Source: Sphingopyxis sp. (GTDB taxonomy: Bacteria; Pseudomonadota; Alphaproteobacteria; Sphingomonadales; Sphingomonadaceae). Taken from it: 64,000 nt of DNA. Numbering within the stretch: position 1 is the stretch's first letter; the number at the start of each line of letters is the position of its first letter. Both the position numbers and the translations under genes were made by a program. Under the pieces are notes generated by a model that did no database searches, had not been told where the DNA came from, and worked only from the letters and a program-made list of their open reading frames with translations. Below are positions 11,117 through 27,091 of this stretch, one piece after another. Where the stretch lies: positions 1 to 64,000 of the forward strand of contig JASBSJ010000004.1 of the NCBI GenBank assembly GCA_030148985.1, in the 5' to 3' direction.

Positions 11117-11168
11117 ATCATTCCTTTCGCGGCCGACTCTGATAGAGACGACCTGCCTCGCCCATGGT

Positions 11169-11186
11169 CATTCTATACTTAGAATG
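11169..11186. promoter_or_regulatory. Inverted repeat CATTCTA-TACT-TAGAATG between divergent genes
   Basis: Perfect 7-bp arms with a 4-bp centre lie between the divergent CoA-transferase (11116) and lyase (11235) starts. The sequence includes TATACTTAG, identical to the reverse complement at 13121-13129. It is a candidate operator for a regulator shared across the island. Confidence 0.45.
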
Positions 11187-11234
11187 CTATGTAATTTTCA
11201 ACCTGCAAATGACCCGGAAAAATCAGGACGCAAG

Positions 11235-12137: not shown

Positions 12138-13045
12138 AGCGTCGCGACCAGCGCCATCACGACGCCGCCGACGACGAGCAGCAGCCCCGCGATTTCGTGC
12201 CAACGCACCGGCTCGCGCAGGTAGAAATGCGCGAAGCCGACGGTGAACACGACCTCGACCTGTCCGACGACGCGCACCAGCGCCGCGGGCGCGGCGGCAA
12301 AACCGATATACCAGCAGGCCGAGCCGAGCGCCGACAGCAGCCCGACCTGGCTCGAATTGCGCCATGTGCGCACGACCGCGGCGAGCGTCGCGCGGTCGCG
12401 CAGAATGACCCACAGCAGGTGCAACGCCGTCTGGATCGCCATCACGACGACGAGCGTCACCAGCGCCGATCCGATCAAATCGACGCCTTCCAGCTCTGCC
12501 GTCGCGAGTTTCACCGCGATGGCGGCGAGCGCGAACATCGACCCCGCGCCGAGTCCGCAGAGCGCTGCCGGCTGGCCGAGCGCGCGTCCGAGTTCGGCGG
12601 CCGAGATGCCGCGCCCCGCCAGAGCAAGGATCAGCACCCCCGCAACCCCCGCGACAATACCGAGCCAAGCAAGCAGCGGCAGCCGCTCACCGAGCAGGAG
12701 CGCGGTCACCAGCGCCGCCTGCACGGCTTCGGTTTTGGAAAAGGCGGTGCCGACGACGAACCCGCGATGCCCGAACGCCATGATGAGCAGGATCGTGCCG
12801 GCCATCTGCGTGACCGCGCCCGCGGCCGCAAAGCCAAGAAAGGCACCGCCCAGCGCAGGAACGGGGTCTCCCGCCGCGCCGAGCCATATGGCCGCAAAGA
12901 CCAGTGCAAAGGGCACGCCATAAAGATAGCGCACCAGCCCCGCGCCGCTGACGCTCAGTTCGGCGCGCAGCCGCTGTTGCAGCGCGGTGCGCCACGCCTG
13001 GAACAGCCCGCCCAAAAGTGCGGCGGGAAGCCAGATCGGATTCAC
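12134..13045 (-). CDS. EamA/DMT family transporter
   Basis: A 303-residue inner-membrane protein with about ten hydrophobic helices in two EamA halves; the second half ends with the family-type PVRWHEIAGLLLVVGG. The GTG at 13045 is preferred: AAGGGG lies 7 bases upstream and the protein then begins VNPIWLPAALLGGLFQAWR. An ATG at 13105 would add a polar, unlikely N-terminus overlapping an inverted repeat. It is probably an exporter of a metabolite or amino-acid-like compound. Its TAG overlaps the stop of the convergent lyase gene. Confidence 0.8.
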   Translation of the reverse strand: MNPIWLPAALLGGLFQAWRTALQQRLRAELSVSGAGLVRYLYGVPFALVFAAIWLGAAGDPVPALGGAFLGFAAAGAVTQMAGTILLIMAFGHRGFVVGTAFSKTEAVQAALVTALLLGERLPLLAWLGIVAGVAGVLILALAGRGISAAELGRALGQPAALCGLGAGSMFALAAIAVKLATAELEGVDLIGSALVTLVVVMAIQTALHLLWVILRDRATLAAVVRTWRNSSQVGLLSALGSACWYIGFAAAPAALVRVVGQVEVVFTVGFAHFYLREPVRWHEIAGLLLVVGGVVMALVATL

Positions 13046-13155: not shown

Positions 13156-14853
13156 CTACGGACAGCGGTTCCAGCCGCGCCCGCGCACCGCGCGTCCCGG
13201 CGTTGCACCGCTATGCTCGCCGTCCTTCAGCACCTGCGTGCCATTCACGAACACGTCGCGCACGCCGACCGAATATTGGTGCGGCGCCTCGAAGGTCGAG
13301 CGGTCGGCGACCGTCGCGGGGTCGAACACGACGACATCGGCATAATAGCCAGGCTTCAGCGCGCCACGATGCTCGATCCCTAAATTGGTCGCGGGCAGGG
13401 TGGTGAGCCGATACACTGCCTGTTCGAGCGGGATCAGCTTCTCGTCGCGGACATAGCGGCCGAGCAGCCGCGCGAAATTGCCATAGGTGCGCGGGTGGGC
13501 GCCCGATTTCAGGAAAACGCCCTCGGTCGCCTGCGACGCCGCGTCGGACCCGAAGCTCATCCACGGCAGCTGGATCTGCTTGCGGACATTATCCTCGGAC
13601 ATCAGGAAATAGACGGTGCCGACGCGCGATCCGTCCTCGATCACGAGGTCCATCGCCGTTTCCTCGGGCGACTTGCCGCGCATCGCCGCAACCTCGGCGA
13701 GCGTCTTGCCGGTCAGCGGCTTGAGGGCTTCGCTTTTGAAGCCCGAAAGGATCATCTTGTCGGCGCCCGCACCGAAATAGAGATTTTCCCAGTCGCTGCC
13801 GGGCTTCTTCATTTCCTCGGCCACGCGGGCACGGGTCGCGGGGTCTTTCAGCCGCTCGATCCATGCCTCGAGCCCACCCGCCTGCACCCACGTCGGCATC
13901 GCGGCGTCGAGCCCCGTCGCGCCGGCGGTGTAAGTGTACATGTCGGTCGTGATCTTCAGCCCCGCGGCGCGCGCATCCTCGATCTTCTTCACGATGGTAT
14001 CGAGCTTGCCCCAATTGCTGCGCCCGGCCATCTTCAGGTGATAGATTTCGGCGGGCGCGCCCGATCGGCGCGAAATCTCGATCAGTTCGTCGACCGCCTC
14101 CTCGATCCGGTCGCCTTCGGATCGCATATGGCTGATATACATACCACCGCACTTCGCCGCTTCGCGGGTCAGCGCGACAAGTTCATCGGTTTCGGCGTAG
14201 GAGCCGGGCGCATAGATGAGTGAGCTGCCGACGCCCATCGCGCCTTCGTTCATCGCCTGCCGCACCAGCGCGCGCATCCGGCCCAGCTGCTCGGGCGTCG
14301 GATCGACATCGCCTTCGCCAAGCTCATGCACGCGCACCGTCGCCGCGCCGACGAAGCTGGCGATATTGGTCGAAATGCCCCGCTTTTCGAGCCAGCCGAA
14401 ATAGTCGCCGAGGCTCGTCCATTCGATCGGATATTGGATGTCGCCCTGTCGCGCCGTCTCCTGGGCTTTCATCGCCGCGTTCATCGGACCCATCGACCAG
14501 CCTTCGCCCATCACTTCCAGCGTCACGCCCTGGCGGATGTCGCTCTGGCTTTTGGGATCGGCGATCAGCGATTCGGTCGCCCAGCTCAGCATGTTGATGA
14601 AGCCCGGTGCGACCGCCATGCCCTTGGCCTGCACCTCGCGTGTCGCCGTTCCTTCAACGGTGCCGACCGCGACGATGCGATCGCCCTTGATTCCGACATC
14701 GCCGATGACCGGCGAATCACCCGACCCGTCATAAAGGGTGCCGCCGCGGATGATCAGGTCATAGGCGGGCGCTTGCGCCGCGACCGGCGCTGCGAGCAGC
14801 ATCGAACTGCACAGCAGCCAAAGCGAGGGTGCGAAGCGCCGGGGCGGTGCCAT
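13156..14853 (-). CDS. N-acyl-D-amino-acid deacylase (D-aminoacylase)-like amidohydrolase
   Basis: A 565-residue amidohydrolase with a Sec signal peptide (residues 1 to about 26, ending AAQA), hence periplasmic. DLIIRGGTLYDGSG and the C-terminal NLGIEHRGALKPGYYADVVVFD are typical of D-aminoacylases, which remove the acyl group from N-acyl-D-amino acids. HMRSEG, YHLKMAG and SFGSDA retain likely ligands of the catalytic metal. The usual N-terminal HxH motif after PGF is replaced: residues 83-89 read PGFINML, followed by SWATES. This may define a subfamily. It follows the XRE-cupin regulator by 22 bp in the same operon, beside D-glutamate genes. Confidence 0.8.
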   Translation of the reverse strand: MAPPRRFAPSLWLLCSSMLLAAPVAAQAPAYDLIIRGGTLYDGSGDSPVIGDVGIKGDRIVAVGTVEGTATREVQAKGMAVAPGFINMLSWATESLIADPKSQSDIRQGVTLEVMGEGWSMGPMNAAMKAQETARQGDIQYPIEWTSLGDYFGWLEKRGISTNIASFVGAATVRVHELGEGDVDPTPEQLGRMRALVRQAMNEGAMGVGSSLIYAPGSYAETDELVALTREAAKCGGMYISHMRSEGDRIEEAVDELIEISRRSGAPAEIYHLKMAGRSNWGKLDTIVKKIEDARAAGLKITTDMYTYTAGATGLDAAMPTWVQAGGLEAWIERLKDPATRARVAEEMKKPGSDWENLYFGAGADKMILSGFKSEALKPLTGKTLAEVAAMRGKSPEETAMDLVIEDGSRVGTVYFLMSEDNVRKQIQLPWMSFGSDAASQATEGVFLKSGAHPRTYGNFARLLGRYVRDEKLIPLEQAVYRLTTLPATNLGIEHRGALKPGYYADVVVFDPATVADRSTFEAPHQYSVGVRDVFVNGTQVLKDGEHSGATPGRAVRGRGWNRCP

Positions 14854-14875
14854 TTTCTTTTTCCTTTTCGGTTGC

Positions 14876-15499
14876 TTATCCGTGCAGGCTCATCAGCGAA
14901 TCCATCAGCCCGTCGTCGGCGCTCGAACAGACGCCAAGGACCAGTGCTTCGTCGAAACCGTCGGCGACGACATAGGCGTGACCCATCGACGAATCGATAT
15001 AGATGCCCTGGCCGACGTCGAGCGTGACGGGGTCGTAAAACTCGCTGTGCACCTCGATCCGGCCTTCGAGGACGTAGATGAATTCCTCGCCCTGATGATG
15101 AACCAGCTCGCCGAACTCGCGCGCGCTGTGCGCACGGATACGCGTCAGGATGGGGATCATCCGCTTTTGCCGAAGGTCGGTGCAGAGGTAGTGATAGTCG
15201 TAATTGTCGGTGGTGACGCGCGCGGCGCGGTCGATCGCGGCGATGCTGCGGCGCCCGGTGACGCGGGGGGCGGTATCCTCATCCTCTTCGGCGAACAGGT
15301 CCGACATGCGAATCTTCAGCCGCTGGCTGAGTTGCTGGAGCTTGTCATAGCTCAGCGTCAGCCGGTCATGCTCGACCTTCGACAGCGTCGATACGGGGAT
15401 GCCCGACTTCGCGCTCATTTCCTTGAGCGTCCAGCCGTTTCGCGCCCTTATCCCCTTCATCACCGCGCCGAGCGTCGGCGGGGTTGCACGGTCCGCCAT
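14876..15499 (-). CDS. XRE-family regulator with cupin sensor domain
   Basis: A 207-residue DNA-binding protein. Residues 15-70 form an XRE helix-turn-helix (TLKEMSAKSGIPVSTLSKVE), and the C-terminal half is a cupin with HHQGEEFIYVLEGRIEVH and a later GHAYVV strand, the usual effector-binding layout. The ATG at 15499 has TTGGAAAA upstream; a TTG at 15511 is less likely because the GGGGA site abuts it. It is first in an operon with the D-aminoacylase-like gene and divergent from the serine hydrolase/DgcA-like operon, making it the obvious regulator of the D-amino-acid cluster. Confidence 0.87.
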   Translation of the reverse strand: MADRATPPTLGAVMKGIRARNGWTLKEMSAKSGIPVSTLSKVEHDRLTLSYDKLQQLSQRLKIRMSDLFAEEDEDTAPRVTGRRSIAAIDRAARVTTDNYDYHYLCTDLRQKRMIPILTRIRAHSAREFGELVHHQGEEFIYVLEGRIEVHSEFYDPVTLDVGQGIYIDSSMGHAYVVADGFDEALVLGVCSSADDGLMDSLMSLHG

Positions 15500-15518
15500 C
15501 AGATTTTCCAATCCCCGT

Positions 15519-15546
15519 TTGACAATTTTCTAATCAGGATCATTAT
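15519..15546 (+). promoter_or_regulatory. Promoter of the S12 hydrolase-dgcA operon
   Basis: TTGACA (15519-15524) is followed after 16 bases by CATTAT (15541-15546). The block TTGACAATTTTC is repeated exactly at 18758-18769, and the next bases also match as AT[CT]AGGA. Its position between the regulator and the divergent operon suggests control by the XRE-cupin protein. Confidence 0.55.
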
Positions 15547-15641
15547 GTCCCTATCGGGCTAACAGATGTTCAGCCCTTGGTAAGGGGTCGCGCGACTTGC
15601 CGCAAGGTGTGACAGGACGCGCCGGACAAAAGGGGAAAGCG

Positions 15642-17618
15642 ATGCGTTTCATTCGCAAGGCGATAATGGGGCTCGCGGCATTGGCCGCGCTGCCATTGGC
15701 GGCGCAGGGGCCGGTGCCCGCGCCCGCGGTAAAGAAGGTCGAAGCCGTGGCTCCGAAAGCGGCGGTGTCGGCACCTGTCGCGCTCGATGCAAAGGATCTC
15801 GAAGCGTGGATGGACGGCTATCTGCCCTATGCGCTCGAACGCGGGCGGATTCCCGGCGCGGTGGTCACCGTCGTGCGCGGCGACGAGGTTCTGCTTCAAA
15901 AGGGCTATGGTTTTGCCGACGTCGCCAAGCGCGCGCCCGTGCTTCCCGAAACGACGCTTTTCAGGCCCGGCTCGGTGTCAAAGCTCGTGACCTGGACCGC
16001 GGTGATGCAGCAGGTCGAGGCGGGGAAGATCGATCTCGACAAAGACGTAAACACCTATCTCGATTTCAAGATTCCGCCGTTCGAGGGCAAGCCGATCACA
16101 ATGCGCCAGATCATGACGCACACGGCGGGCTTTGAGGAATCGGTGCGCTACCTGATCAGCAGCGATCCCAAGGCAGTGAAAACGCTGAAGGAACTGATGC
16201 CGCTGGCGCTGCCCGAGCGCGTGTTCGCGCCCGGTACGACGCCCGCTTATTCCAATTACGCGACCGCGCTCGCCGGTTATATCGTCGAGCGCGTCAGCGG
16301 TCAGAATTTCGACGATTATGTCGAAACCCGGATCTTCAAGCCGCTCGGCATGACGCATTCGACCTTCCGTCAGCCGCTGCCCGCGCGTCTCGTGCCATAT
16401 ATGGCAAAAGGCTATCCCGACGTTACGGGCAAGGCGGAGCCATTTGAAATGGTCCTTCCCGGCCCCGCGGGCAGCCTGTCGGCGAGCGGTGCCGATATGG
16501 CCAAGTTCATGATCGCGCACCTGAATGGCGGCGGCGCCATTTTGAAGCCTGAAACCGTAGCGCAGATGCACAATTTCAAAGCTCCCGGCGTCGGCCCGCT
16601 CAACAGCATGGCGCTCGGCTTTTACGAACAACAGGTCAACGGGCGCCGCGCGATCGCGCATGGCGGCGATACGGTGTGGTTCCACAGCTATCTTTGGCTG
16701 TTCCCCGATAGCGACATCGGCATTTTCCTGTCGATGAATGCGCAGGGCAAGGATGGCGCAACGGGCGCGGTGCGCAGTGCGCTCTTTCACAAATTCGCCG
16801 ACCGCTATCTGCCGGGGCCGCCCGAAAAGGCCTCGCAAGTCGATGCCGCGACCGCGCGCGAACATGCGCAGATGATGGTCGGCCATTATGTCAGCAGCCG
16901 CGGCTCCTTCACCAATTTCTTCAGCCTGTTCGGGCTGCTCGGGCAGGCGACGATCTCGCTGACCGAGGACGGCAAGCTCAGCATCCCCGCGCTTGACGGA
17001 CTTGGCGCCGGAGCGCGCGACTGGGTCGAGGTCGAACCTTTTGTGTGGCGCGATACCGGCACCGGCGAGCGGCTTGCGGCCGAGGTCAAGGATGGCCGCG
17101 TTGTGCGGATGAGTGTTGATCCGGGCTCGCCCTTCATGGTGTTCGAACCCGCGCCCGCCAGCGTCAACGCCGCCTGGCTCAATCCGGCATTGATCTTCGC
17201 CTTCGGTGTGATCTTGCTCGCCGCTCTCGCATGGCCGGTGCGCGCACTGGTGCGGCGCCGCTTCCAGGCGGATTTCGCGCTCACGGGCAAATCGCTCCGC
17301 GCCTATCGCCTGTCGCGGGTCTTCGCGTGGCTCGCGCTCGGGGCGCTGGCGGGGTGGATCGGGCTGATCGCGGCTTTCTCGGCCGACATCGGCAGCCTCG
17401 GCGGCCCCCTCGACTGGCTGATCCACCTGCTCCGCATCCTGACCCCGCTCGCCGCTTTCGGCCTGCTCGCGACCGCGGCGTGGCATTTGTGGAACTGCAT
17501 CAAGGACAAGCGACGCTGGACGATGAAGCTCGGCGCGGTGCTGCTGATCCTCGCCGCCGCGGTGCTTGTGTGGGTCACGCTCGCCTTCCATCTCTATGGC
17601 TTCGGGATGGTCTATTGA
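15642..17618 (+). CDS. Serine hydrolase (beta-lactamase/S12 family) with C-terminal membrane helices
   Basis: A 658-residue exported S12-type hydrolase. A signal peptide covers about residues 1-22. The catalytic set is complete: SVSK (Ser111, Lys114), YSN (Tyr203-Asn205) and a later HGG. From about residue 505 onward the chain has about four hydrophobic segments that would anchor it to the inner membrane with the hydrolase domain in the periplasm. Family members are D,D-peptidases, D-aminopeptidases or esterases. The ATG at 15642 is preceded by AAAGGGGAAAG. It overlaps the dgcA-like start by one base, so hydrolysis of a D-peptide is a fair guess. Confidence 0.85.
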   Translation: MRFIRKAIMGLAALAALPLAAQGPVPAPAVKKVEAVAPKAAVSAPVALDAKDLEAWMDGYLPYALERGRIPGAVVTVVRGDEVLLQKGYGFADVAKRAPVLPETTLFRPGSVSKLVTWTAVMQQVEAGKIDLDKDVNTYLDFKIPPFEGKPITMRQIMTHTAGFEESVRYLISSDPKAVKTLKELMPLALPERVFAPGTTPAYSNYATALAGYIVERVSGQNFDDYVETRIFKPLGMTHSTFRQPLPARLVPYMAKGYPDVTGKAEPFEMVLPGPAGSLSASGADMAKFMIAHLNGGGAILKPETVAQMHNFKAPGVGPLNSMALGFYEQQVNGRRAIAHGGDTVWFHSYLWLFPDSDIGIFLSMNAQGKDGATGAVRSALFHKFADRYLPGPPEKASQVDAATAREHAQMMVGHYVSSRGSFTNFFSLFGLLGQATISLTEDGKLSIPALDGLGAGARDWVEVEPFVWRDTGTGERLAAEVKDGRVVRMSVDPGSPFMVFEPAPASVNAAWLNPALIFAFGVILLAALAWPVRALVRRRFQADFALTGKSLRAYRLSRVFAWLALGALAGWIGLIAAFSADIGSLGGPLDWLIHLLRILTPLAAFGLLATAAWHLWNCIKDKRRWTMKLGAVLLILAAAVLVWVTLAFHLYGFGMVY

Positions 17619-18625
17619 TGGCGACGCAGCGAACGCAGGAATTGACGCTCGACCTTCGGGTCGAGCGTTTTCCCTATCACCAGCCTTTCCGTATTTCGGG
17701 ACATGTTTTTACCGAAACCGCGCTGCTCGTCGCCGAACTCTCCGATGGCGAGCATGTCGGGCGCGGCGAGGGGGCGGGGGTCTATTATCTCGGCGACGAC
17801 ATCGACCATATGCTTGGCCAGGCGGCCAGCGTGCAGGGTGCGATCGAGCGCGGCGCGACGCGCGAGGATTTGCAGCAACTGCTGCCGCCCGGTGGCGCAC
17901 GCAACGCGCTCGACTGTGCCTTTTGGGATCTCGAAGCCAGGCAGACGGGGCGGCCGGTGTGGCAGCTTGCCGGACTGGACGCGCCAAAGGCGCTGTGCTC
18001 GACGTTGACGCTCGGCGCCGATACGCCCGAACGGATGGCGGCGGCTGCACGGGCGATTGACGCGGAGGCGCCGGTCAAGGTCAAGCTGACCGGCGACCTG
18101 GTCGACGATGTCGCGCGCATTGAAGCGATCCGCGCGGCGCGGCCCGATGCCTGGATCGGCGTCGACGCCAATCAGGGCTATGATGTCGGAACGCTGCGCG
18201 ACCTGTTGCCCGTGCTGCTCGCGGCCAGGGTCGCGCAGCTCGAACAGCCGCTGAAACGCGGGCACGAGGCCGATCTGGACGGGCTGAAGCGCCCCTTGCC
18301 CTTCGTCGCCGACGAAAGCGCGCTGTCGCTCGCCGACACCGCTTCGCTCGTCGGGCGCTTCGACGTGGTGAACATCAAGCTCGATAAATGCGGCGGACTG
18401 ACCGAAGGGCTGGCGATCGCGCGGCAGGCAAAGACGCTCGGCCTCGATGTGATGGTCGGCAACATGATGGGGACCAGCCTGTCGATGGCGCCATCCTATC
18501 TGGTCGGGCAACTGTGCGACATTGTCGATCTCGACGGGCCGACCTTCCTCGCACGCGATCGCGGGCCGGGCGTCCAGTATCGCGACGGCATGATTCATTG
18601 TCCGGCCGAGGTTTGGGGCGGGTAG
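17618..18625 (+). CDS. dgcA: DgcA-like N-acetyl-D-glutamate racemase / dipeptide epimerase family
   Basis: A 335-residue cytoplasmic enolase-superfamily enzyme of the dipeptide-epimerase type. Catalytic lysines are in VKVKL (Lys154, Lys156) and NIKLDKCGG (Lys254/257); metal ligands are Asp183 (GVDANQ), Glu209 (LEQP) and Asp232 (ADES). Sequence alone would fit L-Ala-D/L-Glu epimerase. The presence of a DUF1611 (DgcN-like) gene in the same cluster points to DgcA, which converts N-acetyl-D-glutamate to the L form in the reported DgcN-DgcA D-glutamate pathway. Its ATG overlaps the preceding stop as TGATG. An intergenic repeat follows. Confidence 0.75.
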   Translation: MATQRTQELTLDLRVERFPYHQPFRISGHVFTETALLVAELSDGEHVGRGEGAGVYYLGDDIDHMLGQAASVQGAIERGATREDLQQLLPPGGARNALDCAFWDLEARQTGRPVWQLAGLDAPKALCSTLTLGADTPERMAAAARAIDAEAPVKVKLTGDLVDDVARIEAIRAARPDAWIGVDANQGYDVGTLRDLLPVLLAARVAQLEQPLKRGHEADLDGLKRPLPFVADESALSLADTASLVGRFDVVNIKLDKCGGLTEGLAIARQAKTLGLDVMVGNMMGTSLSMAPSYLVGQLCDIVDLDGPTFLARDRGPGVQYRDGMIHCPAEVWGG

Positions 18626-18643
18626 CCGTTCCATCACCCCAAC

Positions 18644-18720
18644 CGTCATCCCGGCGAAGGCCGGGATCTCGCCGGCGAGTTGTAACGATAGGTCGAGATC
18701 CCGGCCTGCGCCGGGATGAC
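18644..18720. repeat. Palindromic intergenic repeat (GTCATCCCGGCGAAGG family)
   Basis: Two 27-base arms, GTCATCCCGGC... and its complement, match with one mismatch around a loop. The same family occurs at 27122-27199. It separates the dgcA-like gene from the next promoter and could act as a terminator or mRNA-stabilising hairpin. Confidence 0.85.
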
Positions 18721-18744
18721 AAGCAAATATATATGTCAATCTGA

Positions 18745-18785
18745 TGTCCTAAATGGGTTGACAATTTTCCGATTAGGACAATAGT
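18745..18785 (+). promoter_or_regulatory. Promoter and operator of the dipeptidase-TonB-dgcN operon
   Basis: Perfect inverted arms TGTCCTAA (18745-18752) and TTAGGACA (18773-18780) bracket a -35 TTGACA (18758-18763); AATAGT (18780-18785) is a possible -10 with 16-base spacing. A regulator bound to both arms would cover the whole promoter. TTGACAATTTTC here is identical to 15519-15530 beside the XRE-cupin gene, the likely regulator. Confidence 0.6.
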
Positions 18786-18820
18786 CGTGAAATTGAGATT
18801 TTCGTAAGAGGGAGGCTGGA

Positions 18821-19963
18821 ATGACGCCGTCATTCCCGATGACGCGCCGCGCGATGATCGCGGGCGCGGCCGGGGTCGCTTTGTCTGCACCGATGGTGAG
18901 CCGCGGCGCCTATGCCTTTGCGGCGGCGCCGGCGAAGGTCTATTCGCGCCGTGCGGTCGATCTCGTCGCCTCATCGCTCGTCATCGACATGCTGGCGCCG
19001 CTCAAGATCACGCTCGACGAAAATTATGTCGCGCACCGGCTGACCGAAGCCGAGGCGGCCGAGTTCAGGGCGTCGGGCATCACCGGCTTTCACAACGCCT
19101 TTGGCCTCGGTGGACCCGATGCGAAGGCGCAGGCGCTCGAGTATCTGGCGGCCTGGCAGGGGTTCGCGGGGCGCAACAGCCATGTCTTCACCCTCGTCGA
19201 CACCGCCGCCGACCTCGACCGCGCGAAAGCCGACGGCAAATGCGCGGTCATCATGGGTATCCAGAATGCCGAGCATTTCGAGAGCGTCGCCGACGTAGCG
19301 CTGTTCCGCCGCCTTGGTCTGCGCTGTGCGCAGCTCACCTACAACAGCCAGAACCGCATCGGATCTGGCAGCACCGATCGCGTCGACGGCGGGGTCAGCG
19401 ACTATGGCGCCGCGATCATCGCCGAGATGGAAAAGCAGAAGATGCTGGTCGACGTCTCGCATTGCGGCGACAGGACGACGCTCGACGCGATCGACATCGC
19501 CAAAGGGCCGATCGCGATCACGCACAGCAACGCGCGCGCGCTCGTCGATCACCCGCGCGTCAAGACCGACGAAGCGATCAAGGCGCTCGCGGCAAAGGGC
19601 GGGGTGATGGGCATCACCGGCGTGCGCATGTTCGTGCGTGCGAGCGACCCTACCAACGTCGGGCATATGGCCGATCATATCGACCATGTCGCAAAGCTCG
19701 TCGGCATCGATCATGTCGGCATCGGCTCGGACGCCGACCTGCACGGCTATGACGACATGAAGCCGGAAGAATATGCCGTGCTGAAGGGCGCGTACAAGGA
19801 CAGCTACGCCTTTCGCGACAAGATCGACATCGATGGTTTCGACCATCCTTTGAAGACCTTCGACCTCGTCGAGGAACTCATTCGCCGCAACTATTCGAAC
19901 GATAACATCCGGGCCGTGCTCGGTGGCAATTTCCGCCGCCTGCTCGCCCAAGTCTGGGGGTAA
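18821..19963 (+). CDS. Membrane dipeptidase (M19 family), Tat-exported
   Basis: A 380-residue M19 dipeptidase. A twin-arginine signal (TRRAMIAGAAGVAL) at residues 8-21 indicates folded export to the periplasm, consistent with a metalloenzyme. VSHCGDR, ITHSNARAL and GIGSDADLHG keep the expected later metal and substrate ligands. The usual N-terminal HxD motif is replaced by VIDMLAPL at residues 54-61. Renal-dipeptidase relatives cleave dipeptides with a C-terminal D-residue. The start has GAGGGAGG 6 bases upstream. It leads the operon dipeptidase-TBDR-dgcN-ykvI-S12-dipeptidase. Confidence 0.86.
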   Translation: MTPSFPMTRRAMIAGAAGVALSAPMVSRGAYAFAAAPAKVYSRRAVDLVASSLVIDMLAPLKITLDENYVAHRLTEAEAAEFRASGITGFHNAFGLGGPDAKAQALEYLAAWQGFAGRNSHVFTLVDTAADLDRAKADGKCAVIMGIQNAEHFESVADVALFRRLGLRCAQLTYNSQNRIGSGSTDRVDGGVSDYGAAIIAEMEKQKMLVDVSHCGDRTTLDAIDIAKGPIAITHSNARALVDHPRVKTDEAIKALAAKGGVMGITGVRMFVRASDPTNVGHMADHIDHVAKLVGIDHVGIGSDADLHGYDDMKPEEYAVLKGAYKDSYAFRDKIDIDGFDHPLKTFDLVEELIRRNYSNDNIRAVLGGNFRRLLAQVWG

Positions 19964-19967
19964 GACA

Positions 19968-22154
19968 ATGAACAAGGGACTTTTCATTACCGGAAGCCTG
20001 ATCGCGGTGATCGCCGCGATGCCGGCGCAGGCGCAGACGGCCGCCGCGATCGAGGCGGGAAGCGAAATCGTCGTCACCGCGCAAAAGCGCGTGCAGAATG
20101 TCCAGGACGTGCCGATCGCGATCGCGGTCGTGAACGGCGAGGAGTTGCAGGAACAAGGCTCGGCCTCGCTCGTCGATTATGCGGGCTATGTGCCCGGCAT
20201 GAACGTCAGCAACGGCGGCACGCCGGGACAGACGACGATCACGCTGCGCGGTGTCGCACCCCTGAACGGAAGTCAGACCGTCGGCATCTATCTCGACGAC
20301 GCGCCGGTGGGATCGAGCGCAATCTACAATCGGGCAGGACAGTTTACGATCGACCTGATGCCCTATGATCTCGAACGTATCGAAGTGCTGAAAGGGCCGC
20401 AGGGCACGCTCTATGGCGCCAGCTCGATCGGCGGCCTGCTGAAATATGTGACGGTCCAGCCCGATACGCGCGCGTTCAAGGTGCGCGCGGGGATTGAGGG
20501 GTTCACGATCAAGGGCGGCGACGGGCTCGGCTGGGGCGGTCAGGTCTATGCCAATGCGCCGATAGTGACCGACAAGCTCGCGATTTCGGGCAGCTTCGCG
20601 TGGCGCAAGACGCCGGGCTGGGTCGATAGCGTCAACAATGCGGCGCTGAAGGACCAGAATGATTATGAACAGCGCGGCGGCCGCGCCGCGCTGTTGTGGC
20701 AGCCGACACCCGAACTCAGCGTCAAGCTGGCAGGCATCTGGCAGTCGCTCGATTCGGACGGCAATGGCATCTATGCCGCCGATCTCGCTGGCAACCGGCT
20801 GGGTGACGGGCGCTCGTTCAACAATTTCGTCCCCGAATCCTTTGACATCGACCTCGATTATTATTCGGCAACGATCGATTATGATTTCGGTGCCGCGGTG
20901 CTGACCTCGGCCACGACTTTCAGCGAGACGCAAAGTCGGCAGGTGCAGGACGCAAGCTATGCCTTTGGCGTGCTCTTTCCGCTGCTGACCGGCGGCACGG
21001 TTGACCCGGGCATCACGCCCTTTTCGCTCGACCTCGGGCTCAAGAAATGGACGCAGGAAGTGCGTCTCGCCTCCCCGAGCGGTGGGCGGTTCGAATGGAT
21101 GATCGGCGGTTTCTTCACCGACGAAGAAACGAGCAATGCGCAGCTTGTCCGCTCGTTCGACATGGACGGCAATAGCATCCCTGGCCTCGACCCGCTCGCG
21201 ATCGTCGGCCTGCCCGCAACCTACAAGGAATATGCGGTTTTCGGCAACGCGACCTTCAAGCTGAGCGAGCAGTTCGAGGTCACCGGCGGCCTCCGCTGGG
21301 CACGCAACGAACAGACTTTCACGCAGATCAGCGAGGGTGCGATCGTGCCGCAGGCCAACGATCCGGGCGAATCGGCCGAAAGCGTCTGGACCTTCTCGGT
21401 CAGTCCGCAGTTCCATATCAACGAGGATGCGATGCTCTACGCGCGCGTCGCGACGGGCTATCGTCCCGGCGGCCCGAACGTTATTGTTCCCAATGTCCCG
21501 CCCAGCGTCGATGCCGACCGCATGACCAATTATGAGGTCGGGCTGAAGGCCGATTTTGCCGACCGCATGGTCTCGGTTGATGCCGCCTTCTTCTGGATGG
21601 ACTGGACCGACATCCAGGTCACGCGTGCCTTTGGCGGCGTGTCGGGCGGTGCGAACGGTGGCAAGGCGACGAGCAAGGGTTTCGAGGGCAGCCTCGCGCT
21701 GCGCCCCGCGCCGGGCCTGACGATCAGCGCCACTGGCAGCTACACCGACGCCAGCCTCAGCGAGGATGTTCCCGAAATCAGCGGCGTGAAGGGCGACCGC
21801 CTGCCCGCAGTGCCGAAATTCGCCGGCGCGCTGCGCGCCGATTATGAATTCGAGCTGGGCGGCAGCACGACAGGCAGCTTCGGTGCGGGCATCCGCCACG
21901 CAGGCAACCGTCTCTCGCTCGTCGAGAGCGATCCGCTCGTCGCACGCGCCAAAGCCTATACGTCCGTCGACCTCAATGCGTCGATGACCTTCAACGACCA
22001 CTGGACGCTGCGCGCCTATGCGCGCAACCTGCTCGACAACAAGGGTGAGATGGCGCGCTCGACGCTCGCCGACGGGCTCAACCAGCCGAGCTTCCTCGCG
22101 ATCTCGCCGTTGCAGCCGCGGACGATCGGCGTCGCACTCGACATGGCCTTTTGA
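19968..22154 (+). CDS. TonB-dependent receptor
   Basis: A 728-residue outer-membrane receptor. Residues 1 to about 22 are a signal peptide ending AQA. The plug contains SEIVVTAQKRVQNVQDVPIA, TITLRGVAP and LERIEVLKGPQGTLYGASS. The C-terminal strand ends IGVALDMAF, with terminal phenylalanine as expected for the barrel assembly signal. It starts 4 bp after the Tat dipeptidase and overlaps the upstream end of the dgcN leader. Its position between a dipeptidase and D-glutamate genes suggests import of D-amino-acid-containing peptides or muropeptide fragments rather than siderophores. Confidence 0.9.
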   Translation: MNKGLFITGSLIAVIAAMPAQAQTAAAIEAGSEIVVTAQKRVQNVQDVPIAIAVVNGEELQEQGSASLVDYAGYVPGMNVSNGGTPGQTTITLRGVAPLNGSQTVGIYLDDAPVGSSAIYNRAGQFTIDLMPYDLERIEVLKGPQGTLYGASSIGGLLKYVTVQPDTRAFKVRAGIEGFTIKGGDGLGWGGQVYANAPIVTDKLAISGSFAWRKTPGWVDSVNNAALKDQNDYEQRGGRAALLWQPTPELSVKLAGIWQSLDSDGNGIYAADLAGNRLGDGRSFNNFVPESFDIDLDYYSATIDYDFGAAVLTSATTFSETQSRQVQDASYAFGVLFPLLTGGTVDPGITPFSLDLGLKKWTQEVRLASPSGGRFEWMIGGFFTDEETSNAQLVRSFDMDGNSIPGLDPLAIVGLPATYKEYAVFGNATFKLSEQFEVTGGLRWARNEQTFTQISEGAIVPQANDPGESAESVWTFSVSPQFHINEDAMLYARVATGYRPGGPNVIVPNVPPSVDADRMTNYEVGLKADFADRMVSVDAAFFWMDWTDIQVTRAFGGVSGGANGGKATSKGFEGSLALRPAPGLTISATGSYTDASLSEDVPEISGVKGDRLPAVPKFAGALRADYEFELGGSTTGSFGAGIRHAGNRLSLVESDPLVARAKAYTSVDLNASMTFNDHWTLRAYARNLLDNKGEMARSTLADGLNQPSFLAISPLQPRTIGVALDMAF

Positions 22155-22174
22155 GCGGATTGGAGTTGAACAGC

Positions 22175-23215
22175 ATGAACGCGCCCATCGGCAGGCTGGC
22201 CGACAGCCTGACCCTGCCGCAGCCCTATCTGCTCTTCCTCGGAGATACGACCGAGGCGGGCTATGCCAAGACCGCCTTTGGCCTTGCCGACTGGGCGGCC
22301 GACCGCTGCGTCGGCGAACTTGGGATCGCCGGCTGCACCGTCACCACGGGGTTGCCGCGGCTGTCGCCGGCGGAGGCGCGCGCGGCGGGCGCGCGCTCGC
22401 TGGTGATCGGCGTCGCCAATCAGGGCGGCGTCATCAGCGAAAGCTGGGTCGCCGCGCTGGTTGCGGCGATGGAGGCGGGGCTCGACATCATCAGCGGGCT
22501 GCACACGCGGCTGACGAGCGTGCCCGCGCTGGTTGCGGCGGCGCGGCGCACCGGCCAGCGGCTGATCGACGTCCGCACCCCGCCGCCGGCGATCCCGATC
22601 GGCAACGGGCGCAAGCGCAGCGGCAAGAGATTGCTGACCGTCGGCACCGACTGCGCGCTCGGCAAGAAATATACCGCGCTTGCGCTGCACCGCGCATTCG
22701 TCGCGCGCGGGATCGACGCCGATTTCCGCGCGACGGGGCAGACGGGGATCATGATCGCGGGCGGCGGCATCCCGATGGACGCGATCGTGTCGGACTTCGA
22801 GGCGGGCGCGGCGGAAATTTTGAGCCCCGATGCGCCGGCCGATCATTGGGATCTGATCGAGGGGCAGGGGTCGATCTTCAACCCCGCTTATGCTGCCGTG
22901 TCACTGGGCCTGCTCCACGGCAGCCAGCCCGATGTGTTCGTCGTGTGTCACGATCCATCGCGCAAGGTCATCCTCGGCATGGAAAGCTTCGCGCTGCCCA
23001 GCATCGAGGAAGTGATCGACCTGACGATCCGCCTCGGTAGCCGCACCAATCCGGCGATCCGCTGCGGCGGGGTCAGCCTCAATACGTCGAGCATGGGGGT
23101 GGGTGAGGCTGAAGCGCTGATCGGCGCCGAGGGCCGCCGCCTTAACCTGCCCGTCGCAGACCCGATCCGCGGCGGCGGTGCCTTCGACGCGCTCGTCGAA
23201 AATTGTCTCGCATGA
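22175..23215 (+). CDS. dgcN: DUF1611 protein, DgcN-like D-glutamate N-acetyltransferase
   Basis: A 346-residue cytoplasmic DUF1611 protein. Its centre has a P-loop-like segment, GTDCALGKKYT at residues 157-167, followed by ATGQTGIMIAGGG, both typical of the family. DUF1611 includes DgcN, reported to acetylate D-glutamate to N-acetyl-D-glutamate, the step before DgcA. The ATG at 22175 is chosen because GGAG lies about 8 bases upstream; a TTG at 22151 is in frame but lacks a site. Its stop overlaps the ykvI-like start as ATGA. The assignment rests on family recognition plus the dgcA-like gene 4 kb upstream. Confidence 0.75.
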   Translation: MNAPIGRLADSLTLPQPYLLFLGDTTEAGYAKTAFGLADWAADRCVGELGIAGCTVTTGLPRLSPAEARAAGARSLVIGVANQGGVISESWVAALVAAMEAGLDIISGLHTRLTSVPALVAAARRTGQRLIDVRTPPPAIPIGNGRKRSGKRLLTVGTDCALGKKYTALALHRAFVARGIDADFRATGQTGIMIAGGGIPMDAIVSDFEAGAAEILSPDAPADHWDLIEGQGSIFNPAYAAVSLGLLHGSQPDVFVVCHDPSRKVILGMESFALPSIEEVIDLTIRLGSRTNPAIRCGGVSLNTSSMGVGEAEALIGAEGRRLNLPVADPIRGGGAFDALVENCLA

Positions 23216-24348
23216 GTGTGGGCGCGACGGGCGGCAGGTCGAGCTGGTTCCAGCGCTTCCTGCTGCCCGGTTTCGCGCTGAAGGCCGTCATCATCGGCGG
23301 CGGCTATGCCACCGGTCGCGAGCTTGCCGAATATTTCGTGCCCTCGGGGCCATGGGGCGGACTGGCGGCAATGCTGCTCGCGACCCTGATCAGGAGCGGC
23401 GTCGCCGCGCTGACCTTCGCGCTCGCGCGGCGGATGCAAGCTTATGATTATCGCAGCTTCTTTGAAGGGCTGCTCGGACCCGGCTGGATTGCGTTCGAAA
23501 TCGCCTATCTGATCTTCGTCGTGCTGATCCTCGCGGTATTCGGCGCGGCAGCTGGCGCGATCGGCGCGGCGACCTTCGGCTGGCCCGAACTCGCGGGATC
23601 GGTGCTGCTTGCGGTCAGTATCGTCGCCTTCACCGCCTTCGGCACCGTGATCGTCGAGACATTGTTTAAATATGCCTCGATGTTGATCTACGCGGTCTAT
23701 GCGCTCTTCATCGTCTTTGCGCTTGCGAGCTTTGGCGAGATGATCGGCAATGGCTTCGCTAACGCGCCGCCGCCGTCGGGAAATTGGGTGGCGGGCGGCA
23801 TCACCTATGCCAGCTATAATATCGTCGGCGCGGTGATCATCCTGCCCGTGCTGCGCCATCTGACCAGCCAGCGCGACGCGGTCGTGGCGGGGCTGATCGC
23901 CGGGCCGGTGACGATGTTGCCCGCGATCCTCTTTTTCGCCGCGATGATGGCTTTTTATCCGGCGATCGGCGACGAGACGCTGCCGTCGGACTTCCTGCTC
24001 CGCCAGATGGCAGTGCCGGGCTTTCATACCCTCTTCCAGCTGATGATCTTTGCCGCGCTCCTAGAAAGCGGCGTCGGCGCGATCCACGCGATCAACGAGC
24101 GTGTTTCGGGGGTCGTCGAGGCGCGCGGCCGCCCGCCGCTCGGCACCGGCGCGCGCGCGGCGATCGGTTCGCTCATCCTCGTCGGCTGCATGTTCGTCGC
24201 CGCGCGCGTCGGGCTCGTCGACCTCATTGCCAGCGGCTACCGCTTCCTCGCCTGGCTGTTCCTCGCCGTCTTTGTCCTGCCGCTGATCACCATCGGCACC
24301 TGGCGCCTGCTGCGTCCCGCCGCTCCCCCTACGGAGGCTTTGCCATGA
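23212..24348 (+). CDS. YkvI-family inner-membrane protein, candidate D-glutamate/peptide importer
   Basis: A 378-residue polytopic inner-membrane protein with about ten hydrophobic segments. The opening helix GFALKAVIIGGGYATGRELAEYF has the unwound glycine-rich TM1 expected of LeuT-fold carriers and resembles B. subtilis YkvI, an uncharacterised APC-superfamily member. The translated product starts at the ATG at 23212 that overlaps the dgcN stop. It is the only inner-membrane transporter in the cluster, so I infer that it carries the released D-amino acid or small D-peptide into the cytoplasm for DgcN. It overlaps the next hydrolase gene by 4 bp. Confidence 0.72.
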   Translation: MSVGATGGRSSWFQRFLLPGFALKAVIIGGGYATGRELAEYFVPSGPWGGLAAMLLATLIRSGVAALTFALARRMQAYDYRSFFEGLLGPGWIAFEIAYLIFVVLILAVFGAAAGAIGAATFGWPELAGSVLLAVSIVAFTAFGTVIVETLFKYASMLIYAVYALFIVFALASFGEMIGNGFANAPPPSGNWVAGGITYASYNIVGAVIILPVLRHLTSQRDAVVAGLIAGPVTMLPAILFFAAMMAFYPAIGDETLPSDFLLRQMAVPGFHTLFQLMIFAALLESGVGAIHAINERVSGVVEARGRPPLGTGARAAIGSLILVGCMFVAARVGLVDLIASGYRFLAWLFLAVFVLPLITIGTWRLLRPAAPPTEALP

Positions 24349-25916
24349 AACGCCTGCTCGCCCTCTCGCTCCTCTTGTCGGTCGCGATGCCCGCATGGGC
24401 CGAACCGCCCGCGGACATCGCCGAAAGCGTCGAGGCGCTGCGGCAGAAAGTCGGCGCGGCCGGTGTGTCGATCGCGATCGTCGAGGACGGCCGGACGACG
24501 CTCGCGCGCGGCTGGGGCGTGCGCAAGCTGGGCGAAGCGGCGCCGGTGGATGCCGCGACGATTTTCCAGACCGGATCGACGGGCAAGGCGATGACCGCCG
24601 CGGCGCTCGCGGTACTGGTCGACGAAGGCAAGATCGCGTGGGACGATCCGGTCATCCAGCATATGCCCTGGTTCCGCATGTACGACCCGTGGGTCACGCG
24701 CGAGATCACGATCCGCGACCTGCTCGTCCATCGCAGCGGGTTGGGGCTCGGGCAGGGGGATTTGATGTTCGTGCCGCGCACGCATCTGACGCGCAAACAG
24801 ACGGTCGAGCGCGTCGCCTATCTCAAGCCCAAGACGAGTTTCCGTTCGGCCTATGCCTATGACAATATCCTTTACGCCGTCGCGGGCCAGCTGATCGAGG
24901 AGGTCACCGGCCAGACATGGGAGGATTTCATCCGCGCGCGCGTGCTGCGTCCCGGCGGGATGAACAATGCCACGAGCGACAGCGAAGAACGCTTCGCTAC
25001 GCCCAACCGCAGTTGGCCGCACGCGCGCCTGTCCGGCCCCTTGCGCGGCATCGGCCCGCAGCAGGCGCTCGACGAGCGCGACGAGCTCGGTCGCAACGGC
25101 GCGCCCGCGGGCGGGCTCGCGCTCAGCGCCGACGATATGGCGGCATGGCTCCGCATCCAGCTCGCGCACGGCGCGCTGCCCGACGGCGAGCGGCTGTTCA
25201 GCGAAAAGCAGGCGATGGAGATGTGGGCGCCAGTGACGCCAATGCCGATCACGCCGCTGCCCGACACGCTGAAGCCCGCGCAGCCGACGCAGCAGGCCTA
25301 TGCGCTCGGCTGGCAGGTGCAGGATTATCGCGGCCACCGCATCATCCAGCACGGCGGCGGCGTCTTCGGGTCGATCACGCGCGTCGTGATGATCCCCGAT
25401 AAAAATGTCGGCTTTGCGATCATGATGAACAGCGAGGACAGCGGGATGCTGCTCGGCCTCACTTACGATTTGCTCGATCATTATCTGGATCAACCCGACC
25501 ATGGCTGGATCCAGAAATGGGAGGACTGGTATCAGGCTCGTCTCGCGGGGGGCGTCGCGTTCCTGAAACAGTCGAAGACGTCGCCAGCGCAGAGCGGTCC
25601 CTCGCTCGCGCTGGCGCGCTATGCCGGGCGCTACCGCGATCCCTGGTACGGTGATGTCGTGATCGGCGCGGACAAGAAAGGGCTGACGATCGATTTCACC
25701 TCGACGCCGCGGATGGCGGGGCGGCTCGATCACTGGCAATATGACAGCTTCGTCACCCGGTTCGACGATCCGGCGATCGAGCCCGCCTATGTCACCTTTG
25801 CGCTCGATGCCGACGGCAAGGTGACGGGGGTGACGATGAAGGCGGTGAGCAAGATCGCGGACTTCAGCTGGGATTATCACGATCTCGACTTGAAGCCCGT
25901 GGAGGAAAAGAAGTGA
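24345..25916 (+). CDS. Periplasmic serine hydrolase (beta-lactamase/S12 family)
   Basis: A 523-residue S12-type hydrolase with a cleavable signal peptide (residues 1-19, MPAWA before EPP). Active-site motifs are STGK (Ser78, Lys81) and YDN (Tyr172-Asn174); a QHGGGVFG block takes the KTG/HGG role. A C-terminal lipocalin-like domain follows (about residue 420 to the end), as in D-aminopeptidase and related esterases. It has no membrane helices, unlike the 15642 paralogue. ACGGAGG precedes the ATG. Translational coupling to ykvI-like and dipeptidase genes supports a role in cutting D-residue peptides or esters in the periplasm. Confidence 0.85.
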   Translation: MKRLLALSLLLSVAMPAWAEPPADIAESVEALRQKVGAAGVSIAIVEDGRTTLARGWGVRKLGEAAPVDAATIFQTGSTGKAMTAAALAVLVDEGKIAWDDPVIQHMPWFRMYDPWVTREITIRDLLVHRSGLGLGQGDLMFVPRTHLTRKQTVERVAYLKPKTSFRSAYAYDNILYAVAGQLIEEVTGQTWEDFIRARVLRPGGMNNATSDSEERFATPNRSWPHARLSGPLRGIGPQQALDERDELGRNGAPAGGLALSADDMAAWLRIQLAHGALPDGERLFSEKQAMEMWAPVTPMPITPLPDTLKPAQPTQQAYALGWQVQDYRGHRIIQHGGGVFGSITRVVMIPDKNVGFAIMMNSEDSGMLLGLTYDLLDHYLDQPDHGWIQKWEDWYQARLAGGVAFLKQSKTSPAQSGPSLALARYAGRYRDPWYGDVVIGADKKGLTIDFTSTPRMAGRLDHWQYDSFVTRFDDPAIEPAYVTFALDADGKVTGVTMKAVSKIADFSWDYHDLDLKPVEEKK

Positions 25917-27091
25917 AGCAACTCGCAATCCTGCTGGCTGCAACATCGCTCGCCGCCTGTTCGACCGGCGGCGACAAGCCGAAGGCGCCCGAAGCGCCGC
26001 TGCACAGCCGGATGCTCGTGCTGGACACGCATCTCGACACGCCGCTCCATTTCGAGCGCGCGGGGTGGAGTTTCGCCGGCCGCCACACCCTCGCCGACGA
26101 TATGGTCCAGCTCGACATTCCGCGGATGAAGGACGGCCATCTCGATGGCGGCTTCTTCGTCATCTATACCGAGCAGGGGCCGCTGACGGCCAAGGGCTAT
26201 GCCGACGCGCTCGCCTTTGCGCGGAAACGCTCCGACCTCATCGACTCTACGCTTGCCAAATATCCCGACGCGATTGCTCCCGCGCGCACCGCAGCGGATG
26301 CCGAGCGGCTGACGCGCGAGGGCAAGCTCGTCGCCTTCAAATCGATGGAGAACAGCTATCCGCTCGGCGAAGATCTGACGCTGCTTCAGCAATTCTACGA
26401 CAAGGGCCTGCGCATGGCGGGGCCGGTGCATTCACGCACCAACCAGTTCGCCGACAGCGCGACCGGCGAGGCGCGCTGGAAGGGTCTGAGCCCGCTCGGC
26501 AAACGATGGGTGGCGGAGATGAACCGGCTCGGCATCGTCATCGACGCCAGCCATTCGTCCGATGCGGCGTTCGACCAGATGCTCGAACTTTCGAAATATC
26601 CGATCATCCTCTCGCACTCCAGCCTGCGCTCGGCTTATGACCATCCGCGCAACCTCGACGAAGCGCGGCTGAAGGCGCTCGCGGCGAAGGGCGGGGCGAT
26701 GTGCATTTCGACGATCTTCATGTCCGAAATGAACATGACCCCGGCGCGCGCCGAGCTGTTCGGCCAATATGAGCGGATCGGCACGATGACCCCGGCCGAG
26801 CAGGCCGAGCTCAACCGCAAATGGCGCGAACTCGACAAGAGCGAGGCGCTATGGGCCGCCGATTTCGAGGATTATATGAAGATGGTGCTACGCGCGATCG
26901 AGGTCGCGGCCCCCGATCATATCTGCTTCGGCGCCGACTGGGACGGCGGCGGCGGCCTGAAGGGCATAGAGGACATCACCGCGCTGCCCAAGGTCACCGC
27001 GCGGCTCAAGGAAGCGGGCTATTCGGACGCCGAGATCGAAAAGATGTGGAGCGGCAATGTGCTGCGTATTCTGAAGGCGCAGGTCGGGTAG
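25913..27091 (+). CDS. Membrane dipeptidase (M19 family), lipoprotein
   Basis: A 392-residue M19 dipeptidase. The first 16 residues form a lipoprotein signal with lipobox LAAC (Cys16) and Ser at +2, so outer-membrane anchoring is likely. LDTHLDTP supplies the canonical HxD pair (His40, Asp42), followed by DASHSSD, LSHSSLRS and the late GADWDGGG. Unlike the Tat-exported paralogue at 18821, all metal-binding motifs appear present. The start is GTG at 25913, overlapping the preceding stop as GTGA, with GGAGG 7 bases upstream. It is the last gene of the operon. Confidence 0.87.
   Translation: MKQLAILLAATSLAACSTGGDKPKAPEAPLHSRMLVLDTHLDTPLHFERAGWSFAGRHTLADDMVQLDIPRMKDGHLDGGFFVIYTEQGPLTAKGYADALAFARKRSDLIDSTLAKYPDAIAPARTAADAERLTREGKLVAFKSMENSYPLGEDLTLLQQFYDKGLRMAGPVHSRTNQFADSATGEARWKGLSPLGKRWVAEMNRLGIVIDASHSSDAAFDQMLELSKYPIILSHSSLRSAYDHPRNLDEARLKALAAKGGAMCISTIFMSEMNMTPARAELFGQYERIGTMTPAEQAELNRKWRELDKSEALWAADFEDYMKMVLRAIEVAAPDHICFGADWDGGGGLKGIEDITALPKVTARLKEAGYSDAEIEKMWSGNVLRILKAQVG

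Follow-up and report, generated by a model that had tools for sequence, protein, structure and literature searches.

A conserved Sphingopyxis gene cluster with D-peptide-type hydrolases, a TonB-dependent receptor and a residue-altered DgcN/DgcA-like enzyme pair that may serve a D-amino acid other than D-glutamate

In TonB-linked nutrient utilisation loci, a receptor, periplasmic hydrolases, an inner carrier, enzymes of cytoplasmic catabolism and a regulator are found clustered. The window analysed here, a stretch of 64,000 nucleotides from Sphingopyxis sp. (contig JASBSJ010000004.1, positions 1 to 64,000), comes from a draft assembly of 2.94 Mb in 86 contigs that is 73% complete, and carries at 13156-27091 a ten-gene cluster (Table 1) with the same kinds of components, differing in a cargo that would be peptide or D-amino acid and in a receptor slot that is exchanged while the core is kept. 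The cluster also resembles the DgcN-DgcA pathway of D-glutamate (D-Glu) (Yu et al. 2023, ISME J 17:537, as cited in PMC12363236), since it holds a DUF1611 protein and a racemase related to the L-Ala-D/L-Glu epimerases (AEE), with P-loop and catalytic residues kept; its pair, however, scores below the family cut-offs, has lost basic residues and is embedded among a receptor, hydrolases, a carrier and an XRE-cupin regulator. The reading favoured here, to which a probability of roughly 55% is given, is that of a regulated D-peptide scavenging cluster whose inner pair is a DgcN/DgcA paralogue that takes a D-amino acid with a neutral or hydrophobic side chain, probably not D-Glu. No published account of this cluster was found in the literature searched.

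The preliminary description of this DNA, made from the sequence alone, had named ten genes in this interval, and all ten were recovered at or near their places. For comparison, 80 named loci were taken with up to 10 kb of flank on each side; being the best 80 of at least 549 confirmed relatives, this sample leans to the window type. The proteins of each locus were assigned to the window protein that they matched best at E 1e-10, with paralogues counted too, and the resulting tallies are slightly low because the gene caller overlooked, among others, DUF1611 in L063 and M19a in L015 and set some starts too far in. Relatives were found for the first S12 hydrolase (S12a-type) in 76 loci, the carrier in 71, the epimerase and the second S12 hydrolase (S12b) in 68 each, the XRE-cupin regulator in 66, the TonB receptor in 58, the M19 proteins M19b and M19a in 56 and 47, and the amidohydrolase in 41. 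The XRE-cupin gene, both S12 types, epimerase, DUF1611, carrier, M19b and receptor stand all together in 45 of the 80, while the right-hand neighbours of the cluster, though covered by the flanks, are seen again in only 0-3 loci and EamA, at its left edge, in none. The genes left of EamA were dropped as a linkage control, lying more than 10 kb from DUF1611 and thus outside the fetched flanks. The gene set at 13156-27091 is a real conserved unit, and the outer-membrane-to-cytoplasm arrangement of D-peptide-type hydrolases around an acetyltransferase-like and racemase-like pair, proposed beforehand, is borne out by this recurrent linkage.

Judged by the DUF1611 gene, most of the nearest named relatives belong to Sphingopyxis. 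The genes stand in the same order in this genus and in relatives such as Altererythrobacter and Pelagerythrobacter, and in altered form in Steroidobacter, Rudaea and Povalibacter; overall, the ordered set of families extends across Sphingomonadales and, modified, into some Gammaproteobacteria. Among 40 genomes of the genus, 36 contain DUF1611 (92 genes). At least one M19 gene lies within 10 kb of 45 of these 92 (two M19 genes at 30), and this is the case in 35 of the 40 genomes. At least 75 M19 genes stand within that distance, against about 2.5 expected, the count being a lower bound taken from 150 listed matches of 226. A plasmid collection searched in 'near' mode returned no match to the DUF1611 gene of the window, and a plasmid origin of the cluster was rejected on this ground.

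The window epimerase keeps the catalytic K-x-K, the metal-binding D/E/D, the second lysine and the DLDGP motif, and thereby the catalytic residues of DgcA; a tally of 69 sequences has these residues and DLDGP in 68-69. In this it is of one family with the E. coli AEE (1jpd) and with 4gfi, but their Arg28, Arg31 and Arg57 are Gly, Phe and Tyr in the window protein, which thus lacks the basic residues of the 20s and 50s loops that presumably define the AEE family. It scores 368 against the NCBIfam DgcA model (NF042940), below the cut-off of 400, and 237 bits against the AEE model, below the cut-off of 343. Classical epimerases have Arg57 in 24 of 24 sequences and Arg28 in all 17 rows covering that position, the other 7 rows not reaching it, while the window-type sequences (57 of class A and 17 of class B) have Gly28 in every covering row and Tyr57 in 98% and 100%, respectively. 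At position 31 the classical type carries Lys or Arg, the window type mostly Phe, and the two loops read FRISRGVKTA/VPYPRYGE in the former and FRISGHVFTE/GVYYLGD in the latter. By the residues at 28, 31 and 57, 77 of 105 rows are non-basic (mostly G/F/Y), 22 basic (two or three R/K) and 6 unclassed, and the split is a single change on the FastTree tree with a support of 100. In the Bacillus subtilis AEE, the 20s-loop arginine reads the side chain of glutamate. The presumed side-chain pocket of the window epimerase has gone from basic to aromatic or hydrophobic, and because it appears remodelled to take a side chain that is neutral or hydrophobic, the substrate of the window pair is probably not D-Glu.

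Parallel losses are seen in the DUF1611 protein (residue numbers count from 22151). It has the P-loop GTDCxxGKKYT and the DUF1611 domain, VGTDCALGKKYTA being present in 81 of 84 sequences, and it scores 445.5 against the NCBIfam DgcN model (NF041892), below the cut-off of 480. Its Ala49, Ile139 and Leu275 stand against Arg, His and Arg in the solved structure 7xrj; Arg49 and Arg275 are shared by 7xrj and the classical DUF1611 proteins, while the window type has Ala and Leu. Over these three positions 98 of 125 rows are non-basic, 26 basic and 1 unclassed, with one change on the FastTree tree. When both enzymes were classed by a two-of-three rule, the fetched loci comprised 79 non-basic/non-basic and 22 basic/basic pairs and no mixed pair, leaving apart 4 unclassed loci and 20 without DgcA nearby. 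A phylum-wide draw of 120 genomes gave 15 loci, of which 12 pairs were scored and 3, with distant DUF1611 proteins, had no adjacent epimerase (L136, L142, L143); five weak DUF1611 matches (L137-L141) were left out of this count. Eleven of the 12 epimerases had Arg28 and Arg57, with Arg275 in all 11 DUF1611 partners, and the lone non-basic epimerase (F, L, F) had a non-basic partner (A, V, G). The non-basic locus L144, with S12 genes, a TonB receptor and an S58 peptidase, holds a pair below both cut-offs (468.6 for DgcN, 338 for DgcA), and the basic pair L146 passes both (560.9 and 498).

The preliminary description had taken the pair for DgcN and DgcA acting on D-Glu, with the cluster feeding on D-Glu peptides such as peptidoglycan stem peptides. 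The best named models are indeed DgcN and DgcA, missed by only about 35 and 32 bits, the catalytic residues and DLDGP of the epimerase are kept in nearly all sequences tallied, and an S12-related component (c37) occurs in three DUF1611 loci. Yet the epimerase loops are without the three basic residues, DUF1611 shows its parallel losses, and a separate pair of the classical kind, which passes both cut-offs (DgcN 510, DgcA 422.5), is present in the same genome (contig C67; L083, 474-12072) beside an AmpG-family permease and an S13 gene. On account of the sub-cut-off scores, the lost basic residues and this second pair, D-Glu was rejected as the principal reading for the window pair, and it is considered unlikely. 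In L040, the c37 copy that was examined (10308-12686, minus strand), near DUF1611, combines in one fused protein an S12 domain and a D-Ala-D-Ala dipeptidase domain of the VanX/DdpX type.

The C67 locus has in common with the window cluster an epimerase and DUF1611 pair, an S12 hydrolase and an amidohydrolase, and differs from it in its classical basic pair, a LysR gene, the AmpG-family permease, and S13 (D-Ala-D-Ala carboxypeptidase family) and S45 (penicillin amidase family) hydrolases. Its eight families are found all together in 17 of 23 genus loci of this type, its own included. The permease scores 320, below its cut-off of 350, and is an additional copy, as a further AmpG-family gene (342.9 bits, likewise under the cut-off) lies elsewhere in the genome. 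In one locus of this type, L098, a sodium:dicarboxylate symporter (10389-11642, plus strand) replaces the permease. The window TonB receptor had no match in the 15 kb fetched around the C67 pair. The C67 pair is more likely to be the D-Glu pair than that of the window, and its locus may connect the classical D-Glu pathway to peptidoglycan. Of the import and breakdown of D-Glu peptides proposed beforehand, the D-peptide part stands, while the D-Glu part is likelier for C67, where the AmpG-family permease and the S13 family also make the peptidoglycan connection stronger than here.

The carrier matched no Pfam or NCBIfam family. Its AlphaFold2 (AF2) model, of mean pLDDT 88.6, has the LeuT/APC fold, with Foldseek TMq values of 0.71 to BasC, 0.70 to xCT and 0.66-0.67 to AdiC, and a free amino acid suits this fold better than a peptide would, so that the protein is probably an amino-acid carrier, its substrate class being predicted from this model. 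This bears on another explanation, in which the epimerase works on imported L-Xaa-D-Xaa dipeptides and DUF1611 does something else. The DxD of DLDGP holds the N-terminus of the dipeptide, and DLDGP is kept in the window epimerase; it is, however, equally kept in classical DgcA (24/24), so that DLDGP/DxD was rejected as a discriminator between dipeptide and N-acetyl substrates. Some dipeptide epimerases, among them the Thermotoga maritima enzyme, do take hydrophobic residues (PMC13338154), and a component of 6 of the 80 loci has, as its examined member, a POT peptide transporter. The amino-acid-carrier-like fold of the standing carrier and the co-occurrence of DUF1611 and epimerase in 68 of 80 loci make this explanation quite improbable.

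For the hydrolases, the earlier proposal of D-residue-cleaving enzymes is upheld in part. Both S12 proteins keep SxxK, YxN and HxG (tallied for S12a over 73 sequences), and the PDB matches of S12a include the alkaline D-peptidase 4y7p (5.9e-27) and the D-Ala-D-Ala carboxypeptidase 1cef (1.1e-21). The metal ligands of M19 dipeptidases are HxD, a bridging Glu, two His and an Asp, and this site is complete in M19b, whose lipobox is present in 52 of 54 orthologues. M19a has the two His and the Asp and is without HxD and the bridging Glu: all 48 sequences of its group have 'IDML' or a close variant in place of HxD, and the 45 of them that were shown have Asn or Asp at the bridging position. Its export by the twin-arginine (Tat) route is likely, not proved, a strict Tat expression matching 20 of 45 orthologues. 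D-Aminoacylases of the 1m7j type bind metal through HxH and a Cys; the amidohydrolase of the cluster has 1m7j as its best PDB match (8.9e-77), followed here by the N-acyl-D-Glu deacylase 3gip (4.7e-69), and has 'LSW' aligned with HTH and a gap where the Cys stands. Its 'MLSW' at the HxH site is shared by 27 of 42 relatives, and most others shown are also without HxH. The activities of M19a and of the D-aminoacylase-like protein are therefore doubtful, the canonical metal ligands being missing.

A TonB receptor lies directly upstream of DUF1611 in 53 loci, and grouping these receptors at 70% identity gives 13 groups. Receptors less than 45% identical occur in 268 of the 634 pairs of loci whose DUF1611 proteins are at least 82% identical, indicating that the receptor is exchanged while the core stays. 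Such exchange is expected if the cargo varies, as it would if the cluster detoxified or consumed D-residue peptide natural products (microcystin, non-ribosomal peptides) rather than serving general nutrition; D-peptidases and ClbP are among the PDB relatives of the S12 proteins, and one close relative is named Sphingopyxis microcysteis. The near-universal linkage in the genus, with M19 beside DUF1611 in 35 of 40 genomes, speaks against so special a role, which is held to be very improbable. A search for MlrC_C found none in the genome of the window, and its control likewise found none anywhere, making the search uninformative. In L004 the protein that occupies the amidohydrolase slot beside the XRE-cupin gene (from about 1.1 kb) is only 30% identical to that of the window, and the remaining cluster proteins are 81-89% identical; this is perhaps a second exchanged slot.

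With regard to regulation, an alignment of 59 XRE-cupin/S12 intergenic regions displays a strongly conserved block of TTGACA, TTYTCYAATCAGGA and ATTATG, which can be read as a candidate promoter with the motif in its spacer. With up to one mismatch, the motif has 87 sites in 70 of 123 loci (2.31 Mb), 50 of them between XRE-cupin and S12, while 20 shuffles of the motif gave 0-2 sites each. In its own genome the sole perfect copy lies in this cluster, with four one-mismatch copies elsewhere (control pattern, 1). Allowing two mismatches, the window has 3 sites against 0.29 expected, and 1 of 100 shuffles reached 3. Among 55 loci with the window-type order S12a-DgcA-DUF1611, site 1 is present in 51 and site 2 in 47, the latter upstream of M19a in 32, of the TonB receptor in 12 and of DUF1611 in 3, with 8 loci lacking it. 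The motif also stands beside M19a (0-2 mismatches) in L055, L059, L075 and L076, stretches without an XRE-cupin gene, so that one regulator may serve several loci; this suggests regulation in trans. The regulator itself is distantly PuuR-like (44.5 against a cut-off of 211 for the NCBIfam PuuR model) and presumably pairs with the conserved motif, the two cluster halves being probably under joint control. The motif gives a handle on the inducer.

In 16 of the 80 loci the cluster is accompanied, towards its far end, by a gene resembling leucine and phenylalanine dehydrogenases and by an AsnC/Lrp-type regulator. The one copy compared matched leucine dehydrogenase at 8.6e-87, tryptophan dehydrogenase at 1.6e-70, phenylalanine dehydrogenase at about 3e-57 and glutamate dehydrogenase at about 1e-25. 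The carrier fold and this neighbour fit a neutral or hydrophobic product, without proving it.

Taken together, the gene content and its linkage lead us to infer the following steps and direction of flow. The TonB receptor would import peptides with D-residues into the periplasm, where the two S12 hydrolases and the lipoprotein M19 would cut them to free amino acids, and the APC-fold carrier would move the D-amino acid to the cytoplasm. There, the DUF1611 protein would N-acetylate it and the enolase-superfamily enzyme would racemise the N-acetyl derivative, deacetylation elsewhere then yielding the L-amino acid, with the XRE-cupin protein controlling both motif-bearing promoters.

Several points weigh against a scavenging cluster with a neutral or hydrophobic substrate for its inner pair. 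The split of the DUF1611 tree has a FastTree support of only 65, and the coupling of the two enzymes may come largely from shared descent. In the phylum-wide draw, L127 joins a basic epimerase to a DUF1611 protein with V, F and R, which is mixed by the two-of-three rule and keeps Arg275 alone of the three positions. Residue 139 among the 11 classical DUF1611 proteins of that outside set is His in 7, Phe in 3 and Thr in 1, and His139 was rejected as a marker because of this variation. For the epimerase, the Bacteroides enzyme 3iji, a Glu-dipeptide epimerase, has Thr28 and Tyr57 and keeps Arg31 alone, so that Arg28 and Arg57 by themselves are not decisive; His29 of the window type, present in 89% of class A, could also stand in for the lost basic residues. 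The YcsG model (TMq 0.62) and Nramp (0.45-0.59) have equal or better Foldseek E-values for the carrier. Lastly, the dehydrogenase-like gene is confined to those 16 loci and is not beside the window cluster, no motif site was seen upstream of it, and its best NCBIfam model is tryptophan dehydrogenase, at 288.7 against a cut-off of 600, no cut-off being reached.

Table 1. Features of the cluster at 13156-27091 of the window; starts of S12a, the TonB-dependent receptor, DUF1611 and the carrier are the likely ones.
Feature	Coordinates	Strand	Basis
Exported D-aminoacylase-like amidohydrolase (AHyd3)	13156..14853	-	Pfam Amidohydro_3, 84 bits; accessory, relatives in 41/80 loci
XRE-cupin regulator, divergent from operon	14876..15499	-	Pfam HTH_3 and Cupin_2; 66/80 loci
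Putative promoter/operator 1: TTGACA, TTTTCTAATCAGGA at 15526-15539, ATTATG; upstream of S12a	15519..15547	+	59-region alignment
S12a serine hydrolase, exported, hydrophobic C-terminal segments	15642..17618	+	Pfam Beta-lactamase, 219 bits
DgcA/AEE-like MR_MLE epimerase, window type	17618..18625	+	Catalytic residues kept; G28, F31, Y57
Putative promoter/operator 2: TTGACA and TTTTCCGATTAGGA at 18765-18778; upstream of M19a unit	18758..18784	+	Two mismatches to motif
M19a, M19-family protein, twin-arginine-type signal	18821..19963	+	Pfam Peptidase_M19, 255 bits; nearest solved 2i5g
TonB-dependent receptor	19968..22154	+	Pfam Plug and TonB_dep_Rec
DUF1611 (DgcN-like) P-loop protein, window type	22175..23215	+	Pfam DUF1611 and DUF1611_N
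Inner-membrane carrier, LeuT/APC fold (predicted)	23212..24348	+	AF2 model and Foldseek
S12b serine hydrolase with DUF3471, exported	24345..25916	+	SxxK, YxN, HxG kept
M19b, lipoprotein-type M19 dipeptidase	25913..27091	+	Pfam, 299 bits; nearest solved 2rag, 1.7e-123

In a wider sense, and tentatively, the results can be taken to mean that DUF1611/enolase pairs make up two or more systems: the known D-Glu system, and another, widespread in sphingomonads and with a hydrophobic pocket, by which D-amino acids of neutral or hydrophobic character, such as D-Leu, D-Val and D-Phe, are salvaged from D-residue peptides. If true, acetylating a D-amino acid to protect it and then racemising it would be a strategy of general use, and the diet would depend on which of the interchangeable TonB receptors is present. 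Where a DUF1611 protein stands beside an enolase-superfamily epimerase, homology is likely to label it as a D-glutamate enzyme. Arg28 and Arg57 of the epimerase and Arg275 of DUF1611 are offered as diagnostic residues, by which the split is directly testable. Counts of dgcN serve as a sign of marine turnover of D-acidic amino acids (PMC12363236); should a large group of sphingomonads act on other D-amino acids, two pathways may be lumped together in these counts.

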